Assembly: GCA_015680905.1 (NCBI GenBank)
Contig: CM027380.1
Span: 10,930,001 to 10,994,000 of the forward strand
DNA from: Coptis chinensis
Taxonomy: Eukaryota; Streptophyta; Magnoliopsida; Ranunculales; Ranunculaceae
Direction: 5' to 3'
DNA length: 64,000 nucleotides
In this document: positions 10,301-54,500 of the stretch, one piece after another
How positions within the stretch are numbered: the first letter of the stretch is position 1
Layout of the letters: each line of letters opens with the position of its first letter
Made by a program: the position numbers and the translations under genes
Notes under the pieces: generated by a model
The model's input: only the letters and a program-made list of their open reading frames with translations
Databases searched by the model: none
What the model was told of the DNA's origin: nothing

Positions 10301-12422
10301 TCATCTAAATAGTTGATTGATCATATTGTCAATGTTCATGTAAGAAGAACCACCAGGAGCAGTAGCCTCTTCAGCTTTCTTCTTCCAGTCCAATGCTTTC
10401 ATCTTCATCTCCTTACCCTTCTCTCCCTCCATCAACTCTCTTACAAGGCTCTCCACTTCCTTTCTCTTCACATTACTATCGATCTCCATGCCTATACCCC
10501 AATGTTTACACGAGTATCTGCAATTTGTATGTTGATCGGCAAAGAAGGGCCAACATATCATAGGCACACCACTAGACACACTTTCTAAAGTTGAGTTCCA
10601 CCCACTGTGAGTCAAGAAGCATCCTATAGAAGGGTGACTGAGTACTTGTTCTTGTGAGCACCAAGTTGCTACTAGACCCCTTTCTTGTGTTTCAGTCACA
10701 AATTCAAGTGGTAGGATCACCGAGTCACCAACCACAAGATCGGGTCGGACAATCCATAAAAAAGTTCGATTGGTATTAGCAAGGCCCCAAGCAAATTCGT
10801 TGAGTTGGTTACTCGTCATGACTGTTACACTACCAAAATTTACGTAAACAACTGAGTTAGGTTCCTTGGAATCAAGCCATTCAAGACACTCGGGTTCTTC
10901 TATCCATAGATTGGAACGAATAGAATCCAATGTAGTTCCTGAAACTTGGCCAAGAAGCAAATGCAGTGGACCAATAGTGTATATAGGTGGAAGAGGCCGA
11001 ATCAACTTGAACGAAATTGCTCTTAACACTTCTTGCTCCAATACATCAAAAGTATTGAAAATAATAGCTTTTGCTGCATATGTTCTTTCAGTTTCACTCA
11101 AGACAAAGTCGATGGTGTCGTCTTTGGCATCTGCAGTTCGAGCAGAACTTGGCAGATCTCTGAAACGGATATCATTCATTCCAGGTATGCATTCTATTGG
11201 CATTTCTAGATCTCCATTTGTTAGATAAGTATCACCTGTTCGATTGGAAAAATAAAAAGAATAATTAGCTTACATTATGTAAACAACCACAATATATGCT
11301 CAAGTTGCTTGTCTGGAGTACCACAACACCCAAGAGACGTCTCAAGTTCGAGTCTCTGGGGACTCCTCTGGTTTGACCGGACAAGTGAGGGCGCCAAACT
11401 TCAGCCAGAGGACTATGGACTGTTTTCCCCGGGTTTCAGCCCCAATTACCTTGTGTTGCGGACTTTGTACTCTTTTTTGTGCGCACCCTTTGAGTTTGAG
11501 GGAGTTGACATGCATGTAAAGGATTGACTAGTTGACTTTGGGTGTTTGCTTAACAAAATTTTCAGCATATATTAGCTCATTTGGACAACGAACTGATTAT
11601 ATCATGACAATTGACATATGCTGTACCTTATATTTGATAAATATATAATTACCGCGGAAAACTGGTAAGCTGATTCACTTAAGTTCTTCTTTAAAGAAGG
11701 TTGAAATTGCTGGACCAAACTGCTTAATTTTTCAACAAAAACGACATCTCTGGTACAACAAGATCATACTAATAAGTAATAACCAATAACCATGCATCCG
11801 CTTTAGCTCGTCTGTTGTGATACCATTGAAGTATCCCAAATAGACAACACAAAGCCCCCTGATCAACTGAAGATATATAAAAAAGTTCATATATACTTTT
11901 TACCTATAAGTGGTATAAGACCTCTTTGTATGAGAAGATAATAATGTAAATATGCTGTGAAGCTGCAAACACTAGGAGTCCAAAATAATACTTCCGGAAT
12001 ACCAAGTTCCTCTGCAACTTTAAGAGTGAAGCTCATGACTCCATCTGAAACTATGCATGAAACAGGAGGAATGTTGATGGAAGAGGAAGTGGTATTTAAT
12101 TGATTTACAAGATTGCGAAAAGGGACTAAGCAATTTTTCTAGTTGATGCGTTGAGAGCTTTGACGTTTTGGGTGGTGTTGGAAGCGGAAGGTGGCAGACC
12201 ATCTGGGATTGAATGGAATTGAAAGTCAGGTAAGCCTCTCAGAGAATTAGGACCCCGAGAGTTTTGTAAGCGTTTGTGATTATAGTCAGTATTGACAAAG
12301 GTGATGTGAAAGCCTTTGTGGTGAAGGATCTTGGCTAGTTTGAGCATGGGGGCGATATGGCCCTGTGCTGGGTATGGTATGCATACTGCATGAAGTCTTC
12401 TGGCTTCTTGTTGGGATCCCAT
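10301..12422 (-). CDS. UGT85-type UDP-glycosyltransferase, two exons, one frameshift
   Basis: It transfers a sugar, usually glucose from UDP-glucose, to a small acceptor (in this family cyanohydrins, terpenols or cytokinin-like compounds) in the cytosol; the acceptor cannot be told. Exon 1 is 12422-11904, the intron 11903-11236 (GT-AG, phase 1) and exon 2 11235-10301. The ATG gives [20 protein letters not shown], followed by catalytic His22. SDGVMSF holds the conserved Asp. The 44-residue PSPG sugar-donor box runs from [10 protein letters not shown] to FFADQ (about residues 365-408 of 484), ending in Gln, which favours glucose. Length and intron place match UGT85A. One base is missing in an A-run at about 12137-12142, after 98 codons; on either side the frame is otherwise open. 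It is either a young pseudogene or a homopolymer error. Confidence 0.85.
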
Positions 12423-13644: not shown

Positions 13645-14402
13645 CACAAGGTCAGCCTCTTCAGCTTTCTTCTCCAATCCAACACATTTTTCTTCATTTC
13701 CTTACCTTTATCACCTTCCATCAACTCTCTTACAAGCTTCTCCACTTCATCTCTCTTCACATCATTATCAATATATCTCCATGCCTATACCCCAATGTAC
13801 ACAAGTGTATCGATAGTTTGTTTGTTGATCAGCAAAGAAAGGCCAACATATCATAGGCACACCAGCACATATACTTTTAACTGTTGGGTTCCACCCACAA
13901 TGAGTTGAGAACCCACCTATGGCAGGGTGGTTAAGGACCTATTCTTTAGGACGCCAACTTGCTAATATTCCCCTTTCTTTAGTCTCATTTATGAACTCGG
14001 TTGGAAGAATAGGCGAGTCACCAACGACTAAATCGGGCCTAATGATCCACAAGAAAGCGTGTTTGCTATTCGCTAGACCCCAAGCAAATTCAATGAGTTG
14101 GTCAGTTGTCATGACGGTAATGCTGCCAAAATTGACATAAATAGCTGAATTAGGTTCCTTGGAATCATCTTTCCATAAATTTGATCCTATCCTTTTTCGG
14201 AAAGCTGGCGATGCAGCAGATGAATTGGTCCGATGGTGTAAAGTGGGGATAATAAGGGCTTGATTGCATCCAAAGTTTCACTCTCAAGAGCATCAAAAGC
14301 ATTGAGAATGATTGCCGAGGCTTTGCGTGCTCTGTCTAATTGTGTTATCATGAAGTTGAGCACAATGTCATTAGGATCTGTAGTTCTGATAAGAGTGGGA
14401 AT
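13645..14402 (-). pseudogene. UGT85 pseudogene, C-terminal part only
   Basis: The minus strand matches exon 2 of the UGT85 gene next door nearly block for block. It has counterparts of the C-terminal Lys-rich helix, the PSPG box (about 13800-13960), the LWIVRPDLV region and [11 protein letters not shown]. The frame is broken by several stops and shifts. The 5' end stops abruptly where the Ty3/gypsy LTR begins at 14403. The missing first part is not found on the far side of the retroelement. It is probably a tandem duplicate of the neighbouring gene. Confidence 0.88.
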
Positions 14403-15000
14403 TGTAAAGGAGTGTTTTGATCTTCTCCTAATTACAACAAGGAAGAACGGGAGGGGTTTGGATTTTGGATGTGACCAGAATTATTTGTGAAAGCTGCCCG
14501 CGATTATCTTCTCTCGTTTTTCCTTTTCTTGGGGAGAGAAGAATCAGGTCTGACGTAGTTCCAGTAGGTGGTATTTATAGATTTTAGGGAGAAGAGATCC
14601 TTCTGACACGTGTACTCTTTTGTGCAAATGTAGGGTGGAGATCGCGGATGAGTGTTGAATTGGATTTTGGATATGCCTGTTATGATTGGGGGTAGATCGC
14701 GGTAGTCCCTATTTCGGTGATGAGATTACCACTAAGATCTTGGCAATCATTACACCTAGTGGGGTGTGTTTCTATCCGGCGTTACGTATCGGCAAAGTGT
14801 TAAATCTTGAGATATCTTCGTTCGCACCACCTACGAGTACGCTTTCGCAGGTCGGTCTTGAGGTCGCCTTGGATTCATCTATCTTTGCGACTCGTGTGCT
14901 TGCTAGAGGCATTGTTCTCGTCCGTCTTGGAGGTCGATATCTTCGGGCCGCTTTATGCTCGCGAGTCGCGATGCCCTATGAGGATATCGCTCCCTACTAC
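14403..15000 (-). repeat. LTR of the Ty3/gypsy fossil (3' LTR by element orientation)
   Basis: Shares TGTAAAGGAGTGTTTTGATC and the following 590 bp with 26177-26773. Its inner edge near 15000 is less certain by a few bases because the terminal dinucleotide is not conserved there. Confidence 0.88.
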
Positions 15001-26176: not shown

Positions 26177-26773
26177 TGTAAAGGAGTGTTTTGATCTTCT
26201 CCTAATTACAATAAGGAAGAGCGGGAAGGGTTTGGATTTTGGATGTGGACCGAGGTATTTGTGAGCTTAAGCCGCCTCACGATATCTTCTCGTTTTTCTT
26301 TTCTTGGGGGAGAAGAATCGAGTCGGCGTAGTTCCAAGTGGGTGGTATTTATAGATTTTGGGGAGAGGAGATCCTTCGACCGTGTACTCTTTTGTGCAAA
26401 TGTAGGGTGGAGATCGCGGATGAGTGTTGAATTGGATTTTGGATATGCCTGTTATGATTGGGGGTAGATGCGGTAGTCCCTATTTCCATTGATGAGATTA
26501 CCACTAAGATCTTGGCAATCATTACTTTGGTGGGGTGTGTTTCTATCCAGCGTTCAGTATCGGTAAAGTGTTAAATGCTTGAGATATCTTCGTTCGCACC
26601 ACCTACTCGAGCCGCTCGCAGGTCGGTCTTGGAGGTCGCCTTGGATTCATCTATGCTGCGCACTCGGTATTGCTGCTAGAAATTGTTCGAATGTCCGTCT
26701 TGGAGGTCGATATCTTCAGTTCGCTTATGCTCCTCGCGAGTGCGATGCCCTATGAGGATATCGCTCCCCTACA
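26177..26773 (-). repeat. LTR of the Ty3/gypsy fossil (5' LTR by element orientation)
   Basis: Begins TGTAAAGGAGTGTTTTGATC and ends CGCTCCCCTACA, giving proper TG...CA termini. It matches 14403-15000 throughout. Confidence 0.9.
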
Positions 26774-27319
26774 ACTTGTTTGATACATTGTTGTGAACTT
26801 CTAGTCTGAAACACACGCCACAGATCCAACGCATTGTTGCACTGTACATCAATGGTGACATCGTGATGTAACTCCTTAGTTTACAATAGTTTCCAAGTCC
26901 ATTTTGATGTGATACGAACTGGAATACTGGATTGATCAATTTTACCAACCTGAGATTGACCAAACTCGGATTAAAACAAAAACAAACCCACCTAATTCTG
27001 CAGCCTGCAGATCATCCAAAACTTAAAAAAAAACCACACCAAAAGAATAAGGGTACCCAAAGAATAATGAAGAAATCTGCGGAGCTCCCAACATTTGGAC
27101 CCATCTCAAATACACTTCAGAAGATATTCTGAGCGACTTCACGTCTTCACCCAATAAAATCAAACACAACACTCCAAATTGCAACCCAACAAAACTAATC
27201 GCATTGTGTGAACCCCAACAAGGGTCATCCACAAAATCCACAACAACATATAACTACTAGCATAGTACCACCATTCACAACTCACAACTCACCACACAAT
27301 TTCATAAAACCCAAAAGCC
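26774..27319. other. Upstream region of HEXO2
   Basis: This should contain the HEXO2 promoter and 5' untranslated region. No convincing TATA box was singled out. The first 170 bp next to the LTR do not resemble the UGT85 sequence interrupted at the other end of the retroelement. Confidence 0.4.
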
Positions 27320-29968
27320 ATGTCGTCTATTTACACCCACCACTTCTATTCTCTTTCCATAATCTTGATCCTCTTTTCGATCACGACCGTCCATTCCCAA
27401 ATCAACGTCTGGCCTAAACCAAGAACCATCTCATGGTCCCACCCACAACTCACTCTTCTATCTCCAACATTCCAAATCACTTCTCCTATTCACACCCACC
27501 TCACTCCGGCAATCACTCGTTACACCCACACTATACTAACAAAACACTACCACCCCATCATCGCACCCACCGTCAACCTCACTTCCTCATCACCCCTACA
27601 AACGTTAACACTCACCATAACCGATCTCATTTCACCACTTCAACACGGCGTAAACGAGTCGTATACTCTATACATCCCCACCACTGGAACGTCTGCTAAT
27701 CTAACAGCTCCAACAGTATGGGGTGCAATGAGAGGTCTAGAAACATTTTCACAACTCGTGTACGGTGACCCGCCACGACTCGCAACGGGTTTGTTTATAA
27801 GTGACTCCCCTATATTTGAACATAGAGGTATTATGCTTGATACATCAAGGAACTACTATGGTGTTGAAGATATATTGAGAACAATTGAAGCAATGAGTTA
27901 TAATAAACTCAACGCGTTTCATTGGCACGTGGTTGATTCTCATTCATTCCCATTGGTTTTGCCTTCGGAACCGGAACTTTCTAGGAAAGGTTCTTATGGG
28001 CCTAAAATGCAATATTCAGTTGAAGATGTGAAGAAGATTGTGCAATTCGGGTTTGAACATGGTGTTAGAGTTATTCCCGAAATTGACTCTCCAGGTTAGT
28101 GTGTTTTACTTTTCTTCATTTTTGATCTCTCCTAATTGTTATGAGTTCAGTTCCTAGTTTCTAGTGGAGTAGCTTTAATGGAGAGTGATTGTGGTCCACG
28201 TGGGGTGTATGGTCCTATCGAGTACTTAGGAAGAAGTGCTCAGATCCGATTAGGTGGTTGGATCACTTGGATAACATGGGCACATGGTCATGTAACTCTA
28301 TTTTCAATTGGTCTGTAGTAAACTAGTAATTCGGTCAGCTGATTTTACGAAGTTGGTCTGGATAAGCACTCCTGTGCCCTGTAGAATGGGAAACGACTCA
28401 AAATATGGTTAATTTGAACTTTGATGCATAGTAAAAAGTACCGCGAAATATCGTCTGTTGCAATTTTTTGAAATTTGCTCAAAATTTTTAAAATCCCCAC
28501 ATAAATACATAATAGGATTTTGATTGAGGAGTTAGGTTTCTACAATTCTACGTACTAACAGTTCTGATTTTTAAACATTGTTGGCTGGTTACTTTGGTAA
28601 GAGTCAACTCCTTTTATTGCATGCCTTGGTAACGTGAATGGGCTGTGGGCATGGTGGTGCTATGTCAGTGAATACTGATAGGTGACATCTGATAGAATTT
28701 CCACGGATGCTTATTAGCATTTTGCGATCAGACTCCGACCAAATTGCTAGATAGAATCATCGGTTAGTTTGGGAAGTTAGAAAGTTTGTACTACCTATTG
28801 AGATTGGACCCTAAATCCTACTTGCATGCAAAAAAAAGAGATTGGACCCTAATTTAATCGTTTATGAACATGAAATGGTATTATATTGTGTATGTAAATT
28901 GGAGCCGGCCAAAATATGCCAAATAACAAGGCCTAATTGACAGATTGGAAACATGGTTTGTATAAGTTGCATTTTCCTCAGAATTTATCTTCAGACTCTT
29001 CATGGTTCTTGTTTCTGGTTGCAGGGCATACAGGTTCATGGGCTGAAGCTTATCCTGAAATCGTCGCTTGTGCAAACATGTTCTGGTTACCATCCGGAAC
29101 TGCTTGGGAAGATCGACTTGCATCTGAACCTGGAACTGGTCACCTTAACCCTCTTCACCCAAAAACCTATGAAGTCCTCAAAAATGTCATCCATGATGTT
29201 ACAACTCTATTCCCAGAAAACTTTTACCATGGAGGAGCAGATGAGATTGTTCCCGGTTGTTGGAAGGCTGACCCAAGCATCCAAAAGTTCTTATCAGATG
29301 GTGGAACTCTTAGTCAACTTCTCGATATCTTTATAAATTCAACTTTACCATATATCACGTCGCATAACCGAACTGTGGTCTATTGGGAAGATGTCTTATT
29401 GGATGCAACTGTGAAGGCAGACCCTTCACTTCTCCCCACTGGAAGCACCATTTTACAAACATGGAACAATGGACCAAACAACACGAAACTCATTGTTTCC
29501 GCGGGATACAGAGCAATAGTTTCATCATCTGAGTTTTACTATTTGGATTGTGGTCACGGCGATTTTCTGGGAAATGATAGTAGCTATGATACTTTAGGAC
29601 CTGTTCCAAAAAATGGTGGGTCATGGTGTGGGCCATTTAAGACATGGCAAACGATATATGACTATGATATAACATATGGTTTAAATGAGCAAGAAGCAAA
29701 GTTGGTTATAGGAGGAGAAGTTGCACTTTGGTCAGAACAAGCTGATTCAACAGTATTAGATGCTAGACTATGGCCTCGAACTTCAGCAATGGCTGAAACA
29801 TTATGGTCAGGGAACAAGGATGAGAGTGGTAAGAAGAGGTATGCTGAGGCAACTGATAGGTTGAATGAATGGCGTTATAGAATGGTGAGCAGAGGTATTG
29901 CGGCTGAACCCCTTCAACCCCTTTGGTGCATTTCTCACCCAGGCATGTGTAATTATAATTATATTTAG
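27320..29968 (+). CDS. HEXO2: Beta-hexosaminidase 2 (GH20), two exons
   Basis: It removes terminal beta-N-acetylglucosamine or galactosamine from N-glycans and chito-oligosaccharides. Plant HEXO2 acts at the plasma membrane/apoplast. Exon 1 is 27320-28094, the intron 28095-29024 (930 bp, GT-AG, phase 1), exon 2 29025-29968, 572 residues, close to the 580 of Arabidopsis HEXO2. Residues 1-26 form a signal peptide ending VHS. INVWPKP opens the N-terminal domain. [28 protein letters not shown] and PEIDSPGHTGSW are GH20 barrel strands. The catalytic pair is Asp331-Glu332 in YHGGADEI. The end [15 protein letters not shown] matches HEXO2 rather than HEXO1. Ala330 stands where the family nearly always has Gly. 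The frame is open throughout. No regulatory site was identified. Confidence 0.93.
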
Positions 29969-30154
29969 TGATTTTATTGGTAGAGAAATCATGTTTGATC
30001 ATAGGCTGTGTGATCCAAAGCCTAAGTTTATAACTTTGAACTTTAGTGAAGAAGAGAATGTTCTTTCCACAGCTATTTTTTGTTGAAAAGTTTGTTAATC
30101 AATGGATAGAAGCAAAAAGGTTTATGTGAAGAGTTTTGTTTTAAATTTATTCAA

Positions 30155-30424
30155 GACATAATGACCTAAAAATACAATGTACTTTGCAGTTTTTTACATT
30201 AAATACAATGTATTATTTTTTTTGCCTAAAAATACAACATACTTTCAATTTTTTACAATTGATACTATCTGTTAAATCGGATTCGACAGAGCTCGATTTA
30301 GCCGTTAAAAAGCAGTCACGTGACTTGCACCCACCTTTTATTTTCGATTTTCATGTTTTGGAAAATTCAAATAATGCTTAGGTGGACTGTATTACTTACG
30401 TGGCTAAGTCAAATAGTGGACTCG
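30155..30424 (+). repeat. Left terminal inverted repeat of the Mutator-like element
   Basis: Pairs with 31218-31495 at high identity, including AAAAAGCAGTCACGTGACTT and GAGCTCGATTTAGCC. Confidence 0.92.
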
Positions 30425-30633
30425 GACATTCCCTCGATCTAATGGTTTCCCTCCTCAAAATTTTCCCCAAATCAGAAACCCAATTTCAATTCTTCTCCAA
30501 TTTCTTCCCTCCAACTCTCCATGTTTTTGCATCCAACTATATATACCCACCAAAAGTGAGGGTTAGTTATAAGTTAGCCCTCTAATAGCCTCAAATTCAT
30601 CCGAAACCAAAAGAACTCACTAATTGGTAAGTT

Positions 30634-31050: not shown

Positions 31051-31217
31051 ACATTATCTTGTTATATATTGTCAACTGTTGACATTCTTAAGTTTTTTTT
31101 TTGTGGTGGTCATCTGTAATGGAGTTTTTGTTGGTTTTTTGGTGCGTTCTTCAACAGAGAAACATTCATCACAACATTCTATGGTACGTGCTTCAATTCT
31201 TTGAGAGAGGTTATGAC

Positions 31218-31495
31218 TGAGTCCACCATTTGACTTAGCCACGTAAGTAATAAAGTTCACCTAAACATTCTTTGAATTTTCCAAAACATGAAAATAGAAA
31301 ATGGGAGGTGGGTGCAACTGTGCAAGTCACGTGACTGCTTTTTAACGGCTAAATCGAGCTCTGTCGAATCCGATTTAACAGATAGTACCAATTGTAAAAA
31401 ATTAAAAGTATGTTGTATTTTTAGGCAAGAAAAATAATACATTGTATTTAATGTTAAAAACTGCAAAGTATGTTGTATTTTTAGGTCATTATGTC
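31218..31495 (-). repeat. Right terminal inverted repeat of the Mutator-like element
   Basis: Inverse copy of 30155-30424, ending TAGGTCATTATGTC before the target duplication. Confidence 0.92.
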
Positions 31496-31504
31496 TTTAT
31501 TCAA

Positions 31505-33793
31505 TTAATAGAATAGTATGTATACTCAGAATATTCAATTTGTACAATTGATACATGAACCTTCTCTTTATTAGAAAAATGTGTTTGCTTATGACACCAG
31601 CACTTAGAAGTGGGAGATGGATCTCCCGTCCATGAACATAGGCAGGGCTTATCCTGTAGTCGTAGGCTAGTAGCTGCGAAAAACAGGATTTATGCCTTTG
31701 GAATTTTGGTCCCCACGCTTCTCCCGGACCGGTGGGGTGAGTTCTATGATGTCCAAGACAAGTCATCGTGGTCGTATTTTTCCCCCCCGGCACAATATAA
31801 CCTGTCTAACGGCGTTACTTGCCAACCTATTTTAGCTCTTTGTTAGTCCGCCACCACGAACACGGACTATCGGAAAGACCAAATCTTCTTTTGGATTTCT
31901 AGTGATTTTTATGTTTACATCGATCTTGGATCTCTCTACTAAACCTGGCTGCATCCTCTGGATTTGTCTAATTGTCTACCCATGGTTTCAACCCGAGTGA
32001 CTAGCCTTGCCATGGTTTCAACCCAAGTTAATAAGAATAGTGCTTCCCATTTCGCATTGAACTGTCTTTAGTTAAAGAACTCGAACAACTGTTGAGACTT
32101 TCTGGAGGTGAAACTGTTGGTGTAGGCAATGACCTAACCTGAATACTGAAGGTGTACCACAATCACAAACTGAAATCATAACACCGGTTTAGTGGCGCGC
32201 TGCTTAGCTACTACTCACTTCATTCGCTGTTATGGCTGTCATAATATAAATTGAAAACAATAACACTGACTTGATGTGCACTTTTTGGCTACTACTATCA
32301 ATATCACTGTTAATGTTAACAAAATACTATTATGGGTACTCCTGAATACTGGTGTAGTTATAACTTGACTGCTACTTGAATCCTGATGAGTGCAGTTTAG
32401 GCTTGACTGCTATCTGAAACATACTTGCAGTTTAGGCTTGACTGCTATTTGAATACTGAAGACTGAATGGTGGAGATGTCAAGGCATGCTGGAATATGAA
32501 GACATGAGTACTCTTTCTCATACGTCTCCATATTCTTCTTCCCTCATATGTTACTGAATGTTTTCATATCTCCCTATTCCCCCTCTCAAGTTGGAATGTA
32601 CAAGGCTGAGTAGGAATATACAAAGACTTGTATATTCCGACTTCAACTTGAAACAGAGAAAACCAAATACCAACTTATACAACCAACCAATGCCAACTTC
32701 AAAAAACAATACTTCATACTCCAGTACACAAAAAAAAATTTAACTGAACATGCATCAAACAATACTCACTATAAAGGGTGGAGAGTGGGTTGCGCCTTTT
32801 TATGACTGCGAACTTCTGGAATAGTGGAAGATGGAAAGAATAATTTCTCGTGAGATAGAGGTCGTGTGCCCTTATAATACTTCAAACAAACAACGTGATC
32901 ATGTTCTAGAAACTGAGACAAAAGACGACATCAATATCAACTGCGTGGAAGGTAGAAACCCAAACATCCATAACGGCATATAAACAATACTACCCCTCTA
33001 ATCCTGGATGAGAGTGTAAACTAATTTCCAAAGGCTTGATACTTCAAAAATCTCGAAAACTGATGTGTGGAGGTATGGGTGTGGGCGCGCTCTTGGCAAG
33101 GCCAATTTCGAGCGCGCGCGCCCTCAGTACTGTTGTTTCGCGAAAGTTTTTTTTTCCTTTCACTGCATGGGCGCTTGCGCCCTTTTGGGCCTGGCTATAA
33201 TTGAGCGCGTGCACGCCCTCTTTATTGGAAAAACGAATCAGTACATAGAAAACTTACTTCTTTTTCACGGCATGGGCGCGTAGCAGAAGGCTTAGATTGA
33301 GTCGTCTTGGCGTCTCGCCCAATACTAACCGGATCTTGCGCGAGATCTGAGAGAGGTTGTGCCCTCTTACAATACTAAGACAGAGAGATTCTAGAAGAAG
33401 GAGACTGCGAAAGTGAAACAATACTAAGAAACCAATACTGAGAAACTTCGGATCTCTCTCCTAGCTTTATTTAAACAAACTTTAAATACTAGCGGAATCT
33501 TGAAAACTTACTTCAAACCATAGAGAATAATGAGATGAGAGATTTCGAAACTTAGAATACTTAAACATGTCGATGAATAGTCTTTGGTGAGCGGTGGTAT
33601 GAAGCGATCTTGTGAACGATCAAGGTGAGCGATAAATCCTTTCAGAAAAATTGAAACTTGAATTGAAATATAAGAACTTCTTCTTATGAGAAACCCTTCT
33701 TCTTCTTAAAACTTGACTTGAATACTATACTGAAAAACTTAAAGAAACTTGATTTTTTTCTTGGTGAGGAATTCCTCTCTAGCATACTACTGA
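31505..33793. other. Intergenic, possibly worn retroelement interior
   Basis: No gene recognised. 31600-31850 is richer in G and C than its surroundings and unidentified. CCATGGTTTCAACCC occurs twice at about 31979 and 32012. CCCCCTCTCAAGTTGGAATG (about 32580) resembles, in inverse, the polypurine tract before Copia 3' LTRs. With the next feature this hints at a worn minus-strand Copia element. The stretch 33065-33290 contains several GGGCGCG words of unknown origin. Confidence 0.35.
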
Positions 33794-34597: not shown

Positions 34598-35178
34598 CTA
34601 GAAGGTTCTGGAACTAGAAGCAAAAGGTGCACCATGCGTATTAGTATAAACAAGAGCTCGCAATTCTCGTTCAAAGCAGAAGCCACGGAGTTGAACCAGA
34701 TTAAAGTGATGGGATCTTCCATTAGTACTCACTTCTTCCATGAATAGCTCCGCAGTTCTCTTATCAAAATTCCCATTGAAAATCTTCACTAAAACTTCTT
34801 GTCCATTGCTAAAATTTCCTTCATAAACTTCCCCACAACCGCCTGCATCCAACACGTGCGTGAAATTACCGGTAGCAATTGTTAGTTCCTTTGGTGAAAA
34901 TCTAATAAGCATCTCTCTCTCCATGTCAAGTGAATCCTTGGGAAATAGCAGAAACCTTGGATTCAAAAGATAGGAGTTACTTCCTCTATGTAATATTGCG
35001 TAGCATACCACGATGACAATAACGACCTTTATTGCAATGACCACTGCAGGCCGAACAGAACACAGAATATAAAACAGTACTACATACTAAAATTTGAACA
35101 ATAAACTGAAAAATGTGAAATCATAATGTGCAACTTACTAAGGAGAGAAGCATGTTGAGCTCCTTCACCCGATGTCAT
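34598..35178 (-). pseudogene. Receptor-like kinase fragment (LRK10L/PR5K-like), truncated
   Basis: A short exon (35178 to about 35142, MTSGEGAQHASLL) ends at a GTAAGT donor. The acceptor CTGCAG lies at 35049-35044 and the second exon runs from 35043. That exon encodes a membrane helix (VVIAIKVVIVIVVCYAIL), a juxtamembrane segment, RFSPKELTIATGNFT, a glycine loop with Cys in place of one Gly (AGGCGEVYEG), VLVKIFNG with the ATP-binding Lys, and SHHFNLVQLRGFCFE. Similarity ends at RALVY. The rest of the kinase domain, including the HRD and DFG motifs, is absent. No extracellular domain was found upstream. It is a fragment of a defence-type receptor kinase and cannot phosphorylate. Confidence 0.75.
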
Positions 35179-41302: not shown

Positions 41303-41305
41303 ATA

Positions 41306-41600
41306 CACTACAACAGAAGGGCTCTTTTGCAGCGCACCCTTTTGCCACGCTAAAAATTTGTTGCTAAAACACATCTATTGCAACGCCAGCTGGCGCTGCT
41401 AAATGTCTTCCGTTCCATAAGGCCTGACTTACTTGCATTCACATATTGCAACGCCTAGACCGTGACAAATGCTTCCTTTTATTATTTTTAAGAAACAATA
41501 ACAAATATTTTTTTAGGAATTTTAGCATTTAACGCAGGTTGTCGCGCGACAATACATGGAATTATTTGCAACGCCGTATTCATTGCTATAAGCTTTAGTC
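41306..41600. repeat. Left subterminal repeats of the CACTA element
   Basis: TTGCAACGCC occurs at about 41389, 41449 and 41570, together with TTTTGCCACGCT (about 41340) and related words. In CACTA elements such repeats bind the TNPA-type protein. Confidence 0.8.
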
Positions 41601-41986
41601 GATTTAATATTTACGCTTTCTCAATATTTGCTATATATTTGTTCGCGGTGATTGTGGCGTCACAATTGGACTCTTTCAATTTTCAGTCTTCTTCGCGGGC
41701 TTTTCTTTTGGGTTTTGGCCCGAACAAAATAACAAAATACTGAAAATAGAAATAACAACAGAATAAAAAAAAAACCCTAAAATCACTTCTTCTCTCCAAC
41801 TGCTCGCTCCCCTCTTTAGTTTCTTCAGCAAATATTGCTATTGCTAGGTGGCTTCAATCTTCCACCCCCGAATTAAGGTAGTCTTCTTCTACATTTAAGA
41901 TAATTCATATAAGCTTTCCATATTTTGCAATATGGAAAGCTTATAAGATAATTCATACCTGTTTTGTTGATGTTCATGGTAACAAG

Positions 41987-43710
41987 ATGTTGAACTCTAT
42001 CAAAGGTTCACTAAACTGCTTGTATCTGGTCTTTGCCTTTATCTCTGCTCTTCTTCTTGGTGCTCTCAAAGGTACTTCTTCTCTTCTTACTCCCAACTTG
42101 TATCCGCTATTTCGATATTTTATGATGGTGGGGATTGTTTTTCTTCTTCCGTCATACTATAAAGCCGTTTTTTTTGATGACGGGGTTTTGGATTTGCGGA
42201 GGTGTAATATTTGGTCCTATTGCAGCTCTAGTACTCATAATTGGGAATGTTGGAGTGATTTTGGGCCTTTTTCCTTATCATGTTGCTTGAATTTGTTTAT
42301 ACCCCTTGTCAAGTATGTAAATTCCTCAACCTTTGTTTCCTTCAAATTGAATGTCTTTAAGCTATTTTCCATGGAACTTCATATCTGAATTGTATTGTTT
42401 GGGTGTAATAATAATTTCTTTTCTTACTTGATCTTGATCGGTGATTGTTTTCGTCATGTAGGACTAATCGGTTCGATGTGCCACTTAAAATCACTCTCCT
42501 ATTGGCTTTGCGGTGTTTTTTGGCATATGGTTGGGCCTCGGCATCGCTCAGAAGCGTTCTTTTTAGGTCTTTGGATACGGGGTTCTTCACGCCAGGTGTC
42601 AACATTTGAGGCCTTCGATGACACAACGAATCAGGAAAGTTTTGGCCTTTGCATTGTGGTACGTTCGAATTCTCATTTGTGTCATTCTTTTCATTATCGG
42701 CTCCAGAATTGAGGTTCATAAAACTAACTTGGGGTCTCTTACTATTTTATAAAATTGGTAGGATGGGACATGGGATCAAATCAAAACAAGGCATCAGTAG
42801 TTCGAGATTTCGCAGATTTCTGCAACCATTCTTATCCACTCTATTTAAAGGACTTACGCAAAGATTCGGATGAAACTTCGAACTTCGATCTTAGGTATGC
42901 TTTATCATTTGCATCTTGAAATTCATAAGTCAAACAAGCTCCATTTAAGTGATTAATGAAGTTTATCGATGGGCTCAAGCCCTTATTTTCAAGGTTTTAA
43001 GAGGGATTGTTTTCTCTTGGTCTTACATCCGGAGTTTCCGTGCAAAATTCCAATTAACGAAGTGTTGTTTTGGTTGGTTTTTCATTTGAAGCTAATCCAT
43101 GAATTGCTTGAGCACCATTTTTCTTAATGATACTATATATCGGTGAGGGAATGGTGAAGAATATCTTGTCGCATTAAAATCAAAGAGTTGTTTATACTTT
43201 ATACCATGACCTTGTTTCTTTTTTTGTAGGTTTGTGCACATACCTGCATGTATTGCCGTGGGGCTGATAGGACTCCTTGTAGAGATTCCACTTTACACCA
43301 TAATTGCCATAGTGAAGAGTCCATACCTGCTTTTCATAGGATGGTACAGATTGCTACATGATCTCATAAGCCGTGAAGGCCCGTTTCTTGAAACAGCTTG
43401 TATCCCAATTGCGGGTTTAACAATCCTTCTGTGGCCACTTGTTGTGGTTGGAAGCATCTTATTTGCTATCTTCTCAAGCATCTTTGTTCTTGTGTATGGA
43501 GCGATTGTTGTATATCAGTCCAGTTCACCTTTCTTTCCTACATTAAGACTTGAATCTTCTTGGCTGCCAACTTATGTTTAGTCTCTTACTCTTCTTGCGG
43601 GAAAGATCTTTCCGAAGAGGTGCATTTTATGTCGTTGCCATGGTTGCAGAATTTGATGAGTACACGAATGGTGGCTATATCCGAGAGAAGGGTCTATACT
43701 ACCAAAGTAA
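41987..43710 (+). pseudogene. Captured polytopic membrane-protein gene (uncharacterised plant family)
   Basis: Pieces follow the order of a plant family of about 500-600-residue membrane proteins of unknown role. 41987-42073 is an N-terminal hydrophobic segment. About 42183-42308 has GPIAALVLIIGNVGVILGLF. 42464-42660 has NRFDVPLKITLLLAL and later GYGFFTPGVSTFEAF-like words. 42761-42895 has VVRDFADFCNHSYPLYLKDL. 43230-43517 has HIPACIAVGLIGLLVEIPLY, ISREGPFLETACIPIAGLTI and LLWPLVVVGS. About 43592-43707 has ERSFRRG and VAMVAEFDEYTN. Introns remain between them. Several exons are interrupted by stops or shifts, and the splice acceptor before the last piece has lost its AG. It is a captured, decayed copy. 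Confidence 0.82.
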
Positions 43711-44542
43711 TTTTCTTTTAAAGTATTCCTTCTTTTCATTTTGAAGTAGTCGATCAAGTGGTTGCTTTTTCTTTCTTGATCCTCCATTTAACATAATTCA
43801 TATAAACTTTGTTTTCGGTTCTAGGATTGGGATTGGTGTTTTGATTTTAAGGTAATCTCCCCACAAACCGAGAAAAACATTAGTTTTGATTTAGCAGTCA
43901 GTGAACTTAGCTTATGAACGTGCTACTTCTAGTAAATTTTAATGGAATCGGTATCTTCAAGTTGAACATCTTTGTTGTTCCAACCGAAGTTTGACCTCCT
44001 TTTCGAAATGATTATCTTGTCGAGATGAAACGCTTTTGCGATTTGTGATGAAATATCAGGCTTGAGTGTTGGATCCAGTGCGCAAGGAGAGGTTTCATTT
44101 TTGTCATGGAATCATAAGGTCCACCATATATTAGCATCCACTTCTAATAATGGTACCACAATGTGAGAAAGGGAAGACATTATCATTTTTGTATATTGAT
44201 AATTGTGTGTCAGTTTTTTTTTTTTCTTTGAATTCTTACTAATGCATGTTTTCATAAATAAGAATAATGGCTGAGACATAATAGTGTACTATATCAAATA
44301 GTTCATTCCCTCATCACTATTCATTCTTTTCCAAGTCAAATGCCACACATCTCTGCTTTCCAATCTCCCTCTTCTCTTTATTCTCCAAAAACTGGTGATG
44401 GTGGGAGAAGTTTCCAATAATTTTCTCATACATGTGAATTAGGATTGGCTAGAAATGCAGAGATGGTGAAATTTGACTTGCACTTGAAGAACATATATGA
44501 TGAAAACCACAATTCTTAATCTAGTCTAGCATTTGAATTGCA

Positions 44543-46285
44543 GGGTCAATGCTTGCATTAAGTGGGATATCTCCGATGATATCTGCATTGTCTATGGACG
44601 ATAGCAAATCTACATCTCCTATTTACTTGCTTCCTCGATTTCCAAATGAGATTGTTGAAGATCGAGATTGGAGGGTACCGATTGAGGCTCCAAAACAGAT
44701 GTGGCTATTACATGTGGGTAATGCCTTGAAAGGAGGGATGTGAAAGGGAATCTAGAAATTCAAGTGCATGTCAGCCGCTTGCTCCTACCAATGGTTCAAT
44801 TTTTGCAAAATGTTTGGTAATTTCTTTTACTATCACACTATTTCTCTGTTTTTTTATCACCACGGATATGATCCTTTTTTTTCTTATTTATTTGAATATT
44901 GACTTTTACTACAAGTGGTAATTTGTAAATCGCCGCATGTAACATAAAGCAAGGATTTTAATTTTTTCATGATTTTGTAGGATATGGTGGAGAAGTGGTA
45001 CATTGGACCCTTCTTTTATGAATGCAAGAGAAGGTGAAGAGGATTCACTGCCTCATCTAGTGGAGGTACTCTTTGTGTTCCCGTGTATGTTTTGTGATTA
45101 AACGTGTGTATGTTCTGTGGACTCACCGCCTCATCTTCTTCTGTTCACCATGTTTATCGTATCACTGAAAAAAATGTTTGTCATTTAAAACTTCTAATAG
45201 GATCACCCAACAAACCATATCTTCACCACATGGAATCACTCCAATATTTTCTACCTCAAACAAATAAGATGTGTACTTTTCTTTAGAGCCTTCTAATAAT
45301 ACAGAAGGTAATTTTCTTTTAATTTTCAAAAGAACACAGATTACACTAGAAATTAGAAACATTTGAACCGAAGTTCGTGGTTTCTTATGTTAGTAGAATA
45401 TGTAGTAATCTGTTTAATTGAATGATCTTTTGAGCGATTAAGAAAAAGATCCCACAATTTAGGTTGTAAAGTTCGACTAAATCTTATGACAATGTAGGTG
45501 TCTCGTGAACTTTGACAAAGAAGGAAATTGTAAATATTGTTCCGTTGAGCCCTTGAACCTTTGGACTACACCTTTCGACTTTCCGTGATCAACCCAATGG
45601 TCTCAAGTAGAAAAACAAGTACATTTATGTTGCCACATCTTCTCGTTTCTGCCAAACCTTGCCACATTTTCCTTTTGATCTTGTTGCAAAGCTCAATGTG
45701 GACAAAGAAGTCGGGAGTTCGACTTGGTGGGTTGAAATCGAAGATTTATCGGTGAGCCCATCTTCATTTCTAAAGGTGACAAAGAGGATGACGGATACCT
45801 CCTTGTAGTAGAGGTAAGAATGAACACATCGAGTAGGTACTTACTCATGCTAAATGACAAAGAAGGCTGAATTTGGGGAACCGATCTTCCTTATAGAACA
45901 ATAGAAATTCCCTATGTTAACCCCCTCGTTGCCATGTTATGTTATGTTGGGTGCATTTTGTATTTCAACATGTCCTTTGGGTTTCAAGGTAGTTACATAT
46001 TATGGCAACACAGCTAACCACATTAAAGAAAAAAAGAGTATATGGTAACTTTTTTGTCCGTACTCCGTTAATCACAAAAGTTGTGGAACTATCTACTGTC
46101 TCGTTTTAACGGATGTTAATCTATGTTTTTGATTTTTTAGTATGCGCGGTTCAAGACAAAGATGTTACCTTGTGATTTTAGATCCAAGACGGATAGGAGA
46201 GTTTGATGCAGTCATAGCAAGGCTTGAAGTTCCCAAAACTTAAATTTTCCTCTTGCTTTTCATGGTTTTGGGGCCGGAGAGAATT
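44543..46285 (+). pseudogene. CCD7: Captured CCD7 fragment (carotenoid cleavage dioxygenase 7), C-terminal half
   Basis: CCD7 cleaves 9-cis-beta-carotene in plastids during strigolactone synthesis. Four exon pieces appear in order. 44543-44817 has GISPMISALSMDDSKSTSPI, YLLPRFPNE, WRVPIEAP and LLHVGNA. About 44980-45065 has GTLDPSFMNAREGEEDSLPH. About 45497-45812 has CSVEPLN, KNKYIYVATSS, LPHFPFDLVAKL and GEPIFISKG. 46141-46285 has RCYLVILDPRRIGEFDAVIA, RLEVPK and FPL.FHGF near the family's end. GT and AG splice signals remain at most borders. Several frameshifts and stops break it, and the N-terminal half with earlier iron-binding His residues is absent. The host's own CCD7 must lie elsewhere. 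Confidence 0.85.
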
Positions 46286-46929
46286 AGTTGTATCGTTTCG
46301 TATTTGATTGCATTATTTTTACTTCGTTAAACGGTTTGTGTCGATAATTCATTTTATAGATAATGACCCAACGCGCATACGGTTTTCAAGAGGTGAGTGG
46401 AAGCAAAGCAATTATCAAATACAAATTATGTGTTATATATTGAAATTGCCATTGAAAGTTTTAAAGCTTATGATCGCGGCGACTTTCAATTCAAGATGCA
46501 TGGAAGCAAATCATTTCTCGGATGCCTCTTCAAGACAGGAAAATTTGAATATCTGTCACCAGTTCACCACCATTGAGTCATGACAGAGAAACATCGATAT
46601 ACTCGGGAGAGTACCATGCTGAGGAACTCAAGTTGAGAAACAATTTGAACAAAAGAGCCGGAATGTGTCGCAGAAGCAATGAAGTTGTTCAACCGTTTTA
46701 CGGATGACCGCTTTGAGAAGATTTTGGATGGCAAGGGCTATTTATTATCGGCACTATATGCTCTAGTTCAAGTTCTGTTATTTTCTGTTTGTTTACACAT
46801 GGGGTGGCCTAAGTAAGATGTTTTGGGTGTACATGTGGAGTTAATAATGAATGAATAAAAATGCATTTCTTTTGCCATTTCATTGTTGTTTTACTGCCAA
46901 ATAAAGTGTGCTTTTCTGGAATTTATATC
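46286..46929. other. CACTA interior after the CCD7 piece
   Basis: A plus-strand stretch at about 46676-46815 reads MKLFNRFTDDRFEKILDGKG followed by a hydrophobic segment (YLLSALYALVQVLLFSVCL) and then ends. It may be the tail of a third captured gene, which I do not recognise. Confidence 0.35.
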
Positions 46930-47444
46930 ATTCGCAACAATTTTGGTGTAGCTTAAAGATTTGATTCTACCGTAACGTAGACACTTTTTGCCACACTTGG
47001 TGTGTCGCTAAATTTATGGACGTCTGTTGCCACGCCAAATGTATAGCTAAAAATTCAAACTTTCCGCAACGGAAATAGTGTAGCAAAAGGTTGCCTTTGC
47101 GATGCCTAGTTGTGACTAAAGGTATCATTTTTGCAACGCCATCCTAGTTGTTACAAGCTCTCTTTTGCGGCGCAAGCCGCGCAAATAGTTTGAAATAAAT
47201 TTGCAATTAATTTAATTTTCATAAATGAAGTAGCAACGAATTAGTGTATTAGCAAGCCCATAGGCGCCGCGAACAAACTAGGAACATTTGCCACGCCACT
47301 TTTGGCGTTGCATTTGAGTATTTGAGACGACTTTTAGCCACGCCTTTGCAACGCCATCCTGGTGCGTTATGACAGATCTTTGCCACGCTCAAAGGCACCT
47401 TTAGCGATGGGGTATGGCGCGCTAAAACCATGCTCGTTGTAGTG
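46930..47444. repeat. Right subterminal repeats of the CACTA element
   Basis: TTGCAACGCC at about 47136 and 47344 and GCCACGCC/GCCACGCT variants at about 46988, 47028, 47289, 47335 and 47380, in both orientations, lie within 520 bp of the right end. Confidence 0.8.
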
Positions 47445-47447
47445 ATA

Positions 47448-51502: not shown

Positions 51503-54500
51503 TTAGCAAACGGTCCGACCATAACAAATTGAAGCAATGTAGAGATTTTTGGCCCATTTATCCTGCATAAAACAGTTGTTAATGGACAATGGCAGAAAAG
51601 ATTCACTGGGGTAAATAAAACAATAACTATGAAAAATAGCCAATCATTAAAATGAGATATTGATAAAAAAAAAGTTTCTACAACTAAATTTATCCTTCCC
51701 TTGCAAGGAAGAACTGATGATGATCCAACAGAAGTAATTTGTAGAGCAGGCACCTACCTTTACATGGGTGGTTGGAAAGGCAGATGTACGCAGAGTTTCT
51801 TGTGTTTCATCCATCAATTTACGTTTTGGCACACTCAATATGAAGGCAGCTTGATCAGTTGTAGCAGCTGTTGACGTTATCCGGTAACCATTCTCCCATC
51901 GCCGGTGGATACCTTCACTTGGGTACAGAAAATCAAGCTCCACAACCTAGTACCAACAGTCCAAGCAAAAGACAGCTAATTATTCGCTAATATTGAAAAG
52001 TTGTCAAGATAGTTACTCAACATCATAAATACTATATCTCCCTGCACAACTATTGATACCTGATCAGAATAACCAGAGTTCCTTGACATTACCACCCCCC
52101 AGCGGCTGCCAGCAGTTGTCATGGAAGTAACATGGAAACCTTCTTTCCATTTCTTATTAATCCATTTGAAAGGAAAAGATTCACTAACTTTATAGGACTG
52201 CTGTGTATAAGGAGTGCCTACAAAATCATATAGTGTCATGAGACAGAATGCATTGAGACCGTTGATGAAGACCAAAAAAAACTATTTGCACATGAAAGTA
52301 TGAAATCACTGTACTCATAAAAACTGTCAAGTCGTAGTTCAATATATATTTGGCAGAGTAACCCGGCTTGACTGATGGTTTAATAATCCAGTTCATGTGG
52401 CTGGACAAGTCAACCATCCAAGCAAGAGATAGTTCTAACCATTACTCCTTTTTCATACTGAAAGCTAGATGACCTCGTTAGCAGTTAGCACTGTCATTTT
52501 CTAAAAGATCTAAGCTACATTGCAAATGCTTGTGTGCGATGAAGGGGCATAATATTTGACTTATAATGCATCCTGAAACTGACTGTGTGTGCCCTTAGAT
52601 GATTATCGATATACTAATTTCAGTGTGGTTAAATAGAAGACACAATAACAATGAGCATTTAACCATAGGAAGATGTTACACTCATAACAGGTTATAGAAG
52701 CAGACCAACCTTTGGACATAACAACCAAGGAACTCCCATTTACCGCACCAGCTATTGCACTGATGTAGTAATTCTTTTCCCATTGTTCCATTATCCAATC
52801 CTTACAAGAACCAAAGAAAAATTAGTAAGTAGTTGCAACAATTTATTACAAAAATATGCAACTGAGTACCGCTATTGAACCCAACCTTATGCAGAAAGAC
52901 AGGAGACAATTCGTAAACCTGGGAACCAAAACTTGTCCCAGCATCCATGATAAGGGCCCAAAAATTTCCTTGGGAGGCTACACAACTGATTTGTAAACCA
53001 TCCTCAATGCCCTTCTCTACATGCTGGCGAAGCCTTGTATCTGCTACATTGTAGTGATATCTATACATGTACAATAAAAAATTCAGTATCCACACACACA
53101 CAGACTTCTCAAATAACTTGCCATGTATTTTTCCAGGTTATCTTAACTTCGTGAGAGAAAAGAAAAGAAAAAAAGAAGACCAATAGACAAGATTCATGTG
53201 ACAGGTAATTTTACAAAAATAAAAAAAAATAAGATTTAATTAGATTGCAACAAGCAATATCCTCAACATCCACATGAATCTGCATTAGATAAATATCCAT
53301 GGAAGAAGCATATAGACCAATTGACGAGAACAAGATCTTATCGTCTAGCACTGAGATTTAATGATTTAATTATTCAATCTTTTTTAGGCTGAACCCAACC
53401 TACAGCATACAGATGTTATATTAGTCAATTTCAGTAATTTAGAATACCCTCCAGGTAGCCATCACAACGCAAATCCACCAGTGTCTCAAAGAGACATCCC
53501 TAAGGCCCTTGCCGAAGTTCCCAAGATTATTTATAGTATCCACGAATTTTTAAATGTTTCAATTCATTCTTCAATCTTCATCTATAATATTAGATTATTA
53601 GTCAATTTCAGTCATCAAAAATGTTTATCTAAAAATAACAAAACATAAGTGAGAAGAAGTTTAGAATATATCACAAGAGTCATCATTTCTCATTTTTTTT
53701 TAAATGTTATCGGCACAACCAGTTAAAATTTTTGGTAACAAAAATGAAGATAAGCGTACATGATATTAATGCACTTGATAATATTGTTAGCCTTTACTAG
53801 TACATTACCCGAACTGATTGTATTAGACATGCCATTCGAAACGATATAACTACTTTCACGAAAGACAGAAAAGCAACTTCTAGTATTTTTCTTTTACGTT
53901 TTCCCTTTATTATTGTATTTGAGAATGGGAAAGATGTAACAGATTATAGCCAATCAATAGGCGTCACATTACAGAGAAACAAAGCAGAACAACAACAATA
54001 TCGTTAATCAAAATAGACATTTTCAACTGCATGACGACAAACGAGAAGACTAATCCCTAAAGCACAATTGTATGTGAAACAAAACTAAAGATAAAGTGAC
54101 CTAATCAGAGTAGCAAAAGCAATGGGCCATTTACCTTTGCTTCATGGGTCGACGTGCATTGTACACAGAAATCCACTGCGTAGCTGGACTTCCTATTCGT
54201 ATTTTTTTCTTAGGTTGGCCATCGTCTTCCAGATTTACAACCAACCTACCTCGCTTTTGTCCAACCTATTCAAACAAATCACCAAAAATTAAGCAACCTA
54301 AACACGAGATACATGAAATGTAAGAACTATTAAAACATTCAACCATCGTATAATGCACTTGTATTCGTAACCTTCAAAGCTCCGTCAATTCTAATTGGTC
54401 TCAAAGGTGCACATGGTTCTATCAGGGTATCAAAGAGTGTAATTAGCTTGGCATAGTTTGGTTCTTCATCAAATTTCATATTTGTCACCATCTCAAGAAA

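Follow-up and report, generated by a model that had tools for sequence, protein, structure and literature searches.

CACTA transposons that capture pieces of several genes are well documented (PMC1947982, PMC5105172, PMC8903248, PMC8978399, PMC13317346), as far as the accessible text of these papers extends. A preliminary description of the present locus had placed it in this known class, and in their available parts the sources agree, with the soybean element Tgm-Express1 (PMC1947982) and the Pack-CACTA elements of rice and maize (PMC8903248) among their examples. Novelty is therefore limited to the choice of cargo, which had been presented as undescribed. In the accessible portions of the literature on both subjects (PMC2556100, PMC13282667, PMC12205860, PMC10005552), subscription papers aside, no account of a CCD7 piece inside a CACTA element appears among the matches listed, in keeping with that claim. 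The reverse situation, in which CACTA-like elements have inserted into Brassica CCD4 genes, is reported in the consulted part of one of these papers (PMC10005552).

Here we describe a locus in a window of Coptis chinensis DNA, the whole stretch analysed being 64 kb long. Positions 41306-47444 very probably constitute a non-autonomous CACTA (En/Spm-type) element of 6.1 kb with captured cargo, an assessment that covers the element and its contents and leaves the route of capture to be graded separately.

Termini and subterminal repeats

The ends of the element comprise the following features.

41303-41305, no strand: left target-site duplication, ATA, read from the sequence
41306-41314, plus strand: left terminal inverted repeat, CACTACAAC, matching the right end at 9/9 positions
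41326-41574, plus strand: left subterminal repeats, five TTTGCMACGC motifs (at most one mismatch)
46987-47388, plus strand: right subterminal repeats, seven TTTGCMACGC motifs (at most one mismatch)
47436-47444, minus strand: right terminal inverted repeat, GTTGTAGTG
47445-47447, no strand: right target-site duplication, ATA, read from the sequence

The interval 41306-47444 begins with CACTACAAC and finishes with GTTGTAGTG, giving inverted CACTA ends that are identical over 9/9 bp, and the ATA on either side forms a 3-bp target-site duplication. The exact termini and duplication reported earlier are thus present. Agreement between the two ends is loose beyond the first 9 bp (12/20 bp and 15/30 bp). 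Matches to the end consensus CACTACAAGAAA, allowing at most two mismatches, show no enrichment across the window (10 against 9.66 expected). The termini might then be chance matches around a region that merely holds two unrelated pseudogene fragments. In favour of such an origin, 22/300 dinucleotide shuffles of the window contained one or more 9-bp CACTA pairs accompanied by a 3-bp duplication, and for the left end at 41306 position 53056 offers a second partner, over 8 bp. Exact termini are consequently insufficient on their own, and it is the subterminal repeats that make the case.

Just inside both ends lie repeats extending over several hundred bases, as in the CACTA (En/Spm) superfamily. 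Counting both strands of the window and allowing at most one mismatch, we found 14 TTTGCMACGC motifs; all 12 on the plus strand sit in the element ends, while the two on the minus strand both lie outside them. The core GCNACGC occurs 11 times, on either strand, in the 0.92 kb of ends (400 bases on the left and 520 on the right), whereas 2000 shuffles averaged 0.85 and never exceeded 5. This motif had been picked after inspection of the ends, and for that reason a second test admitted every 7-mer with one inner N, provided that it occurred at least twice in each end. GCNACGC was the commonest qualifying pattern, with 10 occurrences. When patterns of any composition were allowed, 49/1000 shuffles of the ends reached 10 with some pattern, so the signal is modest without a composition limit. 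With patterns restricted to at least four G or C, a limit that was itself set afterwards, none of 1000 shuffles reached 10; the same holds for 280 other sites in the real window laid out with the same geometry, where the top value was 6. Taken against the shuffled pairs and the 8-bp match at 53056, the repeats just inside both ends (0/2000 shuffles reaching the GCNACGC count), the confinement of 12/12 plus-strand TTTGCMACGC motifs to the ends and the absence of a comparably frequent GC-rich repeat at 0/280 other places make chance termini scarcely credible.

We also considered whether each subterminal unit forms a hairpin, and dropped the idea: folding energies fell within those of shuffles (z of about 0.2 on the left and -1.7 on the right, parameter set unspecified). 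By pattern, palindromic units number one in the left end, two in the right end and none in the interior.

Two decayed gene pieces with introns

Between the ends lie two gene pieces and a further stretch of short open frames.

41987-43706, plus strand: piece of a multi-spanning membrane-protein gene, six exons with introns, from forward-frame reading
44544-46284, plus strand: carotenoid cleavage dioxygenase gene, C-terminal portion in four exons separated by three introns, from an RPE65 match of a stitched reading
46395-46816, plus strand: short open frames, perhaps from a third decayed fragment or from the element itself

The dioxygenase reading was stitched by eye with CCD7 in mind. Its translation matched the Pfam family RPE65 (PF03055; 469 profile positions) at positions 227-465 with an E-value of 2.2e-29, and the final 117 residues by themselves still gave 5.5e-18. 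Since the match starts at profile position 227, the piece lacks the N-terminal half of this domain. Carotenoid oxygenases in the PDB were matched at up to 2.3e-08, within the second half of the reading; its first 61 residues matched no Pfam family, its first 148 residues matched no oxygenase in the PDB, and the single open reading frames 44537-44740 and 45611-45805 gave no RPE65 match in Pfam at an E-value of 0.5 or better. Of the identity proposed in the preliminary description, the carotenoid dioxygenase family therefore stands on the stitched reading (RPE65, 2.2e-29), while the choice of CCD7 over other plant dioxygenases is presumptive. As a reading of the sequence the CCD7 label is plausible, the test having covered the dioxygenase family alone; no CCD7 peptides for comparison were found printed in the literature searched. 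To our knowledge NCEDs are intronless, and the introns of this piece argue against that group.

The membrane-protein piece, read in the three forward frames, has six exons rich in membrane spans and is presumably similar to At3g27390, a membrane protein of plants. No curated Pfam cut-off was reached by this piece, the best match being TMEM169 (0.014) in the open reading frame 43210-43578. A comparison of its large exon with viral contigs, where plants are not expected, returned 20 pattern matches, none confirmed by tblastn. Host gene pieces thus lie between the ends, as in Pack-CACTA and transduplicating CACTA elements, one identified through RPE65 and the other by its presumed resemblance to At3g27390.

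Both pieces lie on the plus strand in the same orientation, and 7/8 of their internal introns, judged by eye, keep GT..AG, which agrees with the arrangement first described. The retained introns indicate that the pieces were copied from genomic DNA and exclude a cDNA route. Neither reading frame is whole. In the dioxygenase piece, whose exons total 819 bp, eight frame changes fall inside exons (placed by eye and approximate) and a ninth at the start of exon 2, and no intact CCD7 frame is present. In the membrane-protein piece the lesions are one in-frame stop (TGA in exon 2), two within-exon frame changes in 923 bp of exons (likewise approximate and placed by eye) and one lost acceptor, with TTGCGG at the expected acceptor site of intron 5, again by eye. 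From their sequence, both cargo pieces look too decayed for a working protein. A greater age for the dioxygenase piece was considered and set aside as too weak, 7, 8 or 9 lesions against 3 giving P of about 0.13, 0.08 or 0.05.

No transposase was found by Pfam (E-value 0.5) in any of the 44 stop-to-stop open reading frames of at least 50 amino acids that overlap the element, in line with the earlier reading and as expected for a non-autonomous member. None of the 44 reaches a curated Pfam cut-off; a weak match below it was to a copia gag model (0.014) in the frame 41492-41740. For the stretch 46395-46816, Pfam and NCBIfam matches all lay far below curated cut-offs and the PDB match was a chance one. 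Together, the ends, the repeats, the RPE65 match and the introns support the proposal that a CACTA element here captured pieces of two host genes: it is a decayed non-autonomous CACTA carrying two transduplicated gene pieces.

The rest of the window holds a mixed set of features. Direct repeats at 315-884 and 2470-2994 (92-95% identity, about 2.1 kb apart) bracket a retroviral SH3-like domain (1365-1784), and 2248-2375 contains a 32-bp tandem repeat. A UDP-glycosyltransferase frame (Pfam UDPGT) at 10301-11269 has a related second copy at 13673-14074, with 74-82% DNA identity over stretches of 100-300 nt. The direct repeats 14403-14805 and 26177-26576, about 11.8 kb apart and 77-100% identical over stretches of 47-89 nt, enclose a G+C-richer stretch, the whole being probably an LTR retrotransposon. 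A glycosyl hydrolase family 20 domain occupies 28937-29968 (gene region 27308-29968), the frame 27308-28099 being presumably the first exon of this gene, and shortly after it comes a large foldback-like inverted repeat (30144-30442 and 31200-31506; 187 nt at 95% and 118 nt at 86%). On the minus strand, 34598-35086 is a short protein-kinase fragment (Pfam PK_Tyr_Ser-Thr, 1.2e-07). Rfam gave no matches on the window.

Junctions, route of capture and possible expression

The edges of the cargo show four further features.

41889-41917, plus strand: 29-nt direct repeat, copy 1 (26/29), at the edge of the membrane-protein piece
41905-41948, no strand: near-perfect hairpin with 20-nt arms, 95% complementary, filler-like
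43782-43810, plus strand: 29-nt direct repeat, copy 2
43707-44543, plus strand: junction region, a candidate chimeric intron by inference (GT at 43707, AG at 44542-44543, phase 1 on both sides)

The 29-nt repeat is the best direct repeat of the interior, ends excluded; it scores 20, whereas 60 shuffles gave at most 15. One copy precedes the first ATG of the membrane-protein piece by about 70 bases, and the other follows the last exon of that piece by about 76. The hairpin 41905-41948 stands at the left copy, and a further copy of part of the repeat comes after it. Within 41905-41958, a copy of AAGATAATTCATA stands on each side of the hairpin, giving a small palindromic insert framed by a duplication. 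Dating the event by the repeat was rejected: its 3/29 differences correspond to a K of about 0.11, and the interval around this value, 0.02 to 0.34, is too wide.

In En/Spm elements, a transposase and a repeat-binding protein act on the terminal inverted repeats and the subterminal repeats. The present element would presumably have been moved in trans by the corresponding proteins of an autonomous relative, helpers that would act on its terminal inverted repeats and TTTGCMACGC repeats. Its interior appears to have been replaced by copies of two host gene pieces (transduplication). We somewhat favour copying at the DNA level during abortive gap repair: after excision, a broken end would copy an unrelated gene and then switch template. 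To judge from their sequence, the direct repeat and hairpin at the edges of the membrane-protein piece look like template-switch filler from such repair, and the repeat could already have existed in the donor gene. The cargo would then have decayed free of coding constraint, its lack of present function being our deduction from the broken frames.

A competing account of this step alone, which we hold possible and clearly the less probable of the two, is the fusion of neighbouring insertions, in which two related elements flank host DNA, their inner ends are lost or mutated and the whole moves as one unit. The available parts of two papers (PMC8903248, PMC13317346) put such fusion forward for Pack-CACTA of Arabidopsis and give cases from rice and maize that are compatible with it. 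It would leave decaying inner ends, however, and the interior between the two gene pieces holds no subterminal TTTGCMACGC motif. Moreover, the pieces appear to join between two introns rather than as adjoining whole genes, so that fusion would need two rounds of capture or further deletions. The junction anatomy, a 29-nt flanking repeat with a hairpin, could help to discriminate between abortive gap repair and the fusion of neighbouring insertions.

The orientation of the cargo also bears on its possible expression. With both pieces in the same orientation, and with a GT and an AG joining phase 1 to phase 1, a spliced chimera is possible, in which the 5' part of the membrane-protein gene would drive a transcript ending in the 3' part of the dioxygenase. 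The survival of GT..AG in 7/8 internal introns points the same way, as do captured sequences that are transcribed in Tgm-Express1 (PMC1947982) and Tpn1 (PMC5105172), according to the accessible text on each. Against these points stand the broken frames of both pieces, the lost acceptor and a phase match that has a one-in-three chance of arising anyway. We regard expression of the cargo, which would be compatible with our preferred reading of a decayed element, as unlikely.

The dioxygenase piece could also, by analogy, give rise to siRNAs that act on an intact CCD7 and thereby influence branching and the level of strigolactone. In the consulted part of one paper (PMC13317346), in which CACTA elements are unnamed, sequences captured by maize Helitrons, Pack-MULEs and Sireviruses are described as reservoirs of siRNAs acting on donor genes. 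Decay by frameshifts weighs against this scenario, and the identity of the piece to a working CCD7 may now be too low for silencing; trans-silencing of CCD7 becomes less likely accordingly, and we rate it very improbable. Marginally less probable still is a ready-made exon fusion, in which the promoter and 5' exons of the membrane-protein gene would be spliced in phase to the CCD7 3' exons and the transcript or its small RNAs would feed back on strigolactone synthesis in some host lines. By itself, the element says nothing on strigolactone control.

Comparison with described gene-capturing CACTA elements

The closest counterparts can be compared through the available text of the papers that describe them. 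CACTA elements of Chenopodium likewise have subterminal direct and inverted repeats and captured fragments of host genes; unlike the cargo here, the AP2 fragment in that genus is 80 bp long and lies upstream of a transposase domain (PMC8978399). The Tpn1 family of the Japanese morning glory resembles our locus in being non-autonomous CACTA in which captured genic regions replace the inside, with the Tpn1 ends conserved (PMC5105172). That family is estimated, in the part of the paper at hand, at 500-1,000 copies and is still transposing, whereas one element was seen here (PMC5105172). Pack-CACTA elements of Arabidopsis, maize and rice share with it CACTACAA ends, the lack of a transposase and coding DNA possibly drawn from more than one locus, on the evidence of the accessible text (PMC8903248). 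Our locus differs from them as a single element, with no cluster of relatives seen. In size and make-up it comes close to Tgm-Express1 of soybean, a 5.7-kb CACTA element that also consists of exon and intron pieces from several unrelated host genes (PMC1947982, in its available part). Tgm-Express1 holds five pieces against two here, derives from other genes in another host, sits in an intron of F3H and yields chimeric transcripts, as that same portion of the paper reports (PMC1947982). Set beside these systems, the Coptis element is one more example of CACTA exon shuffling.
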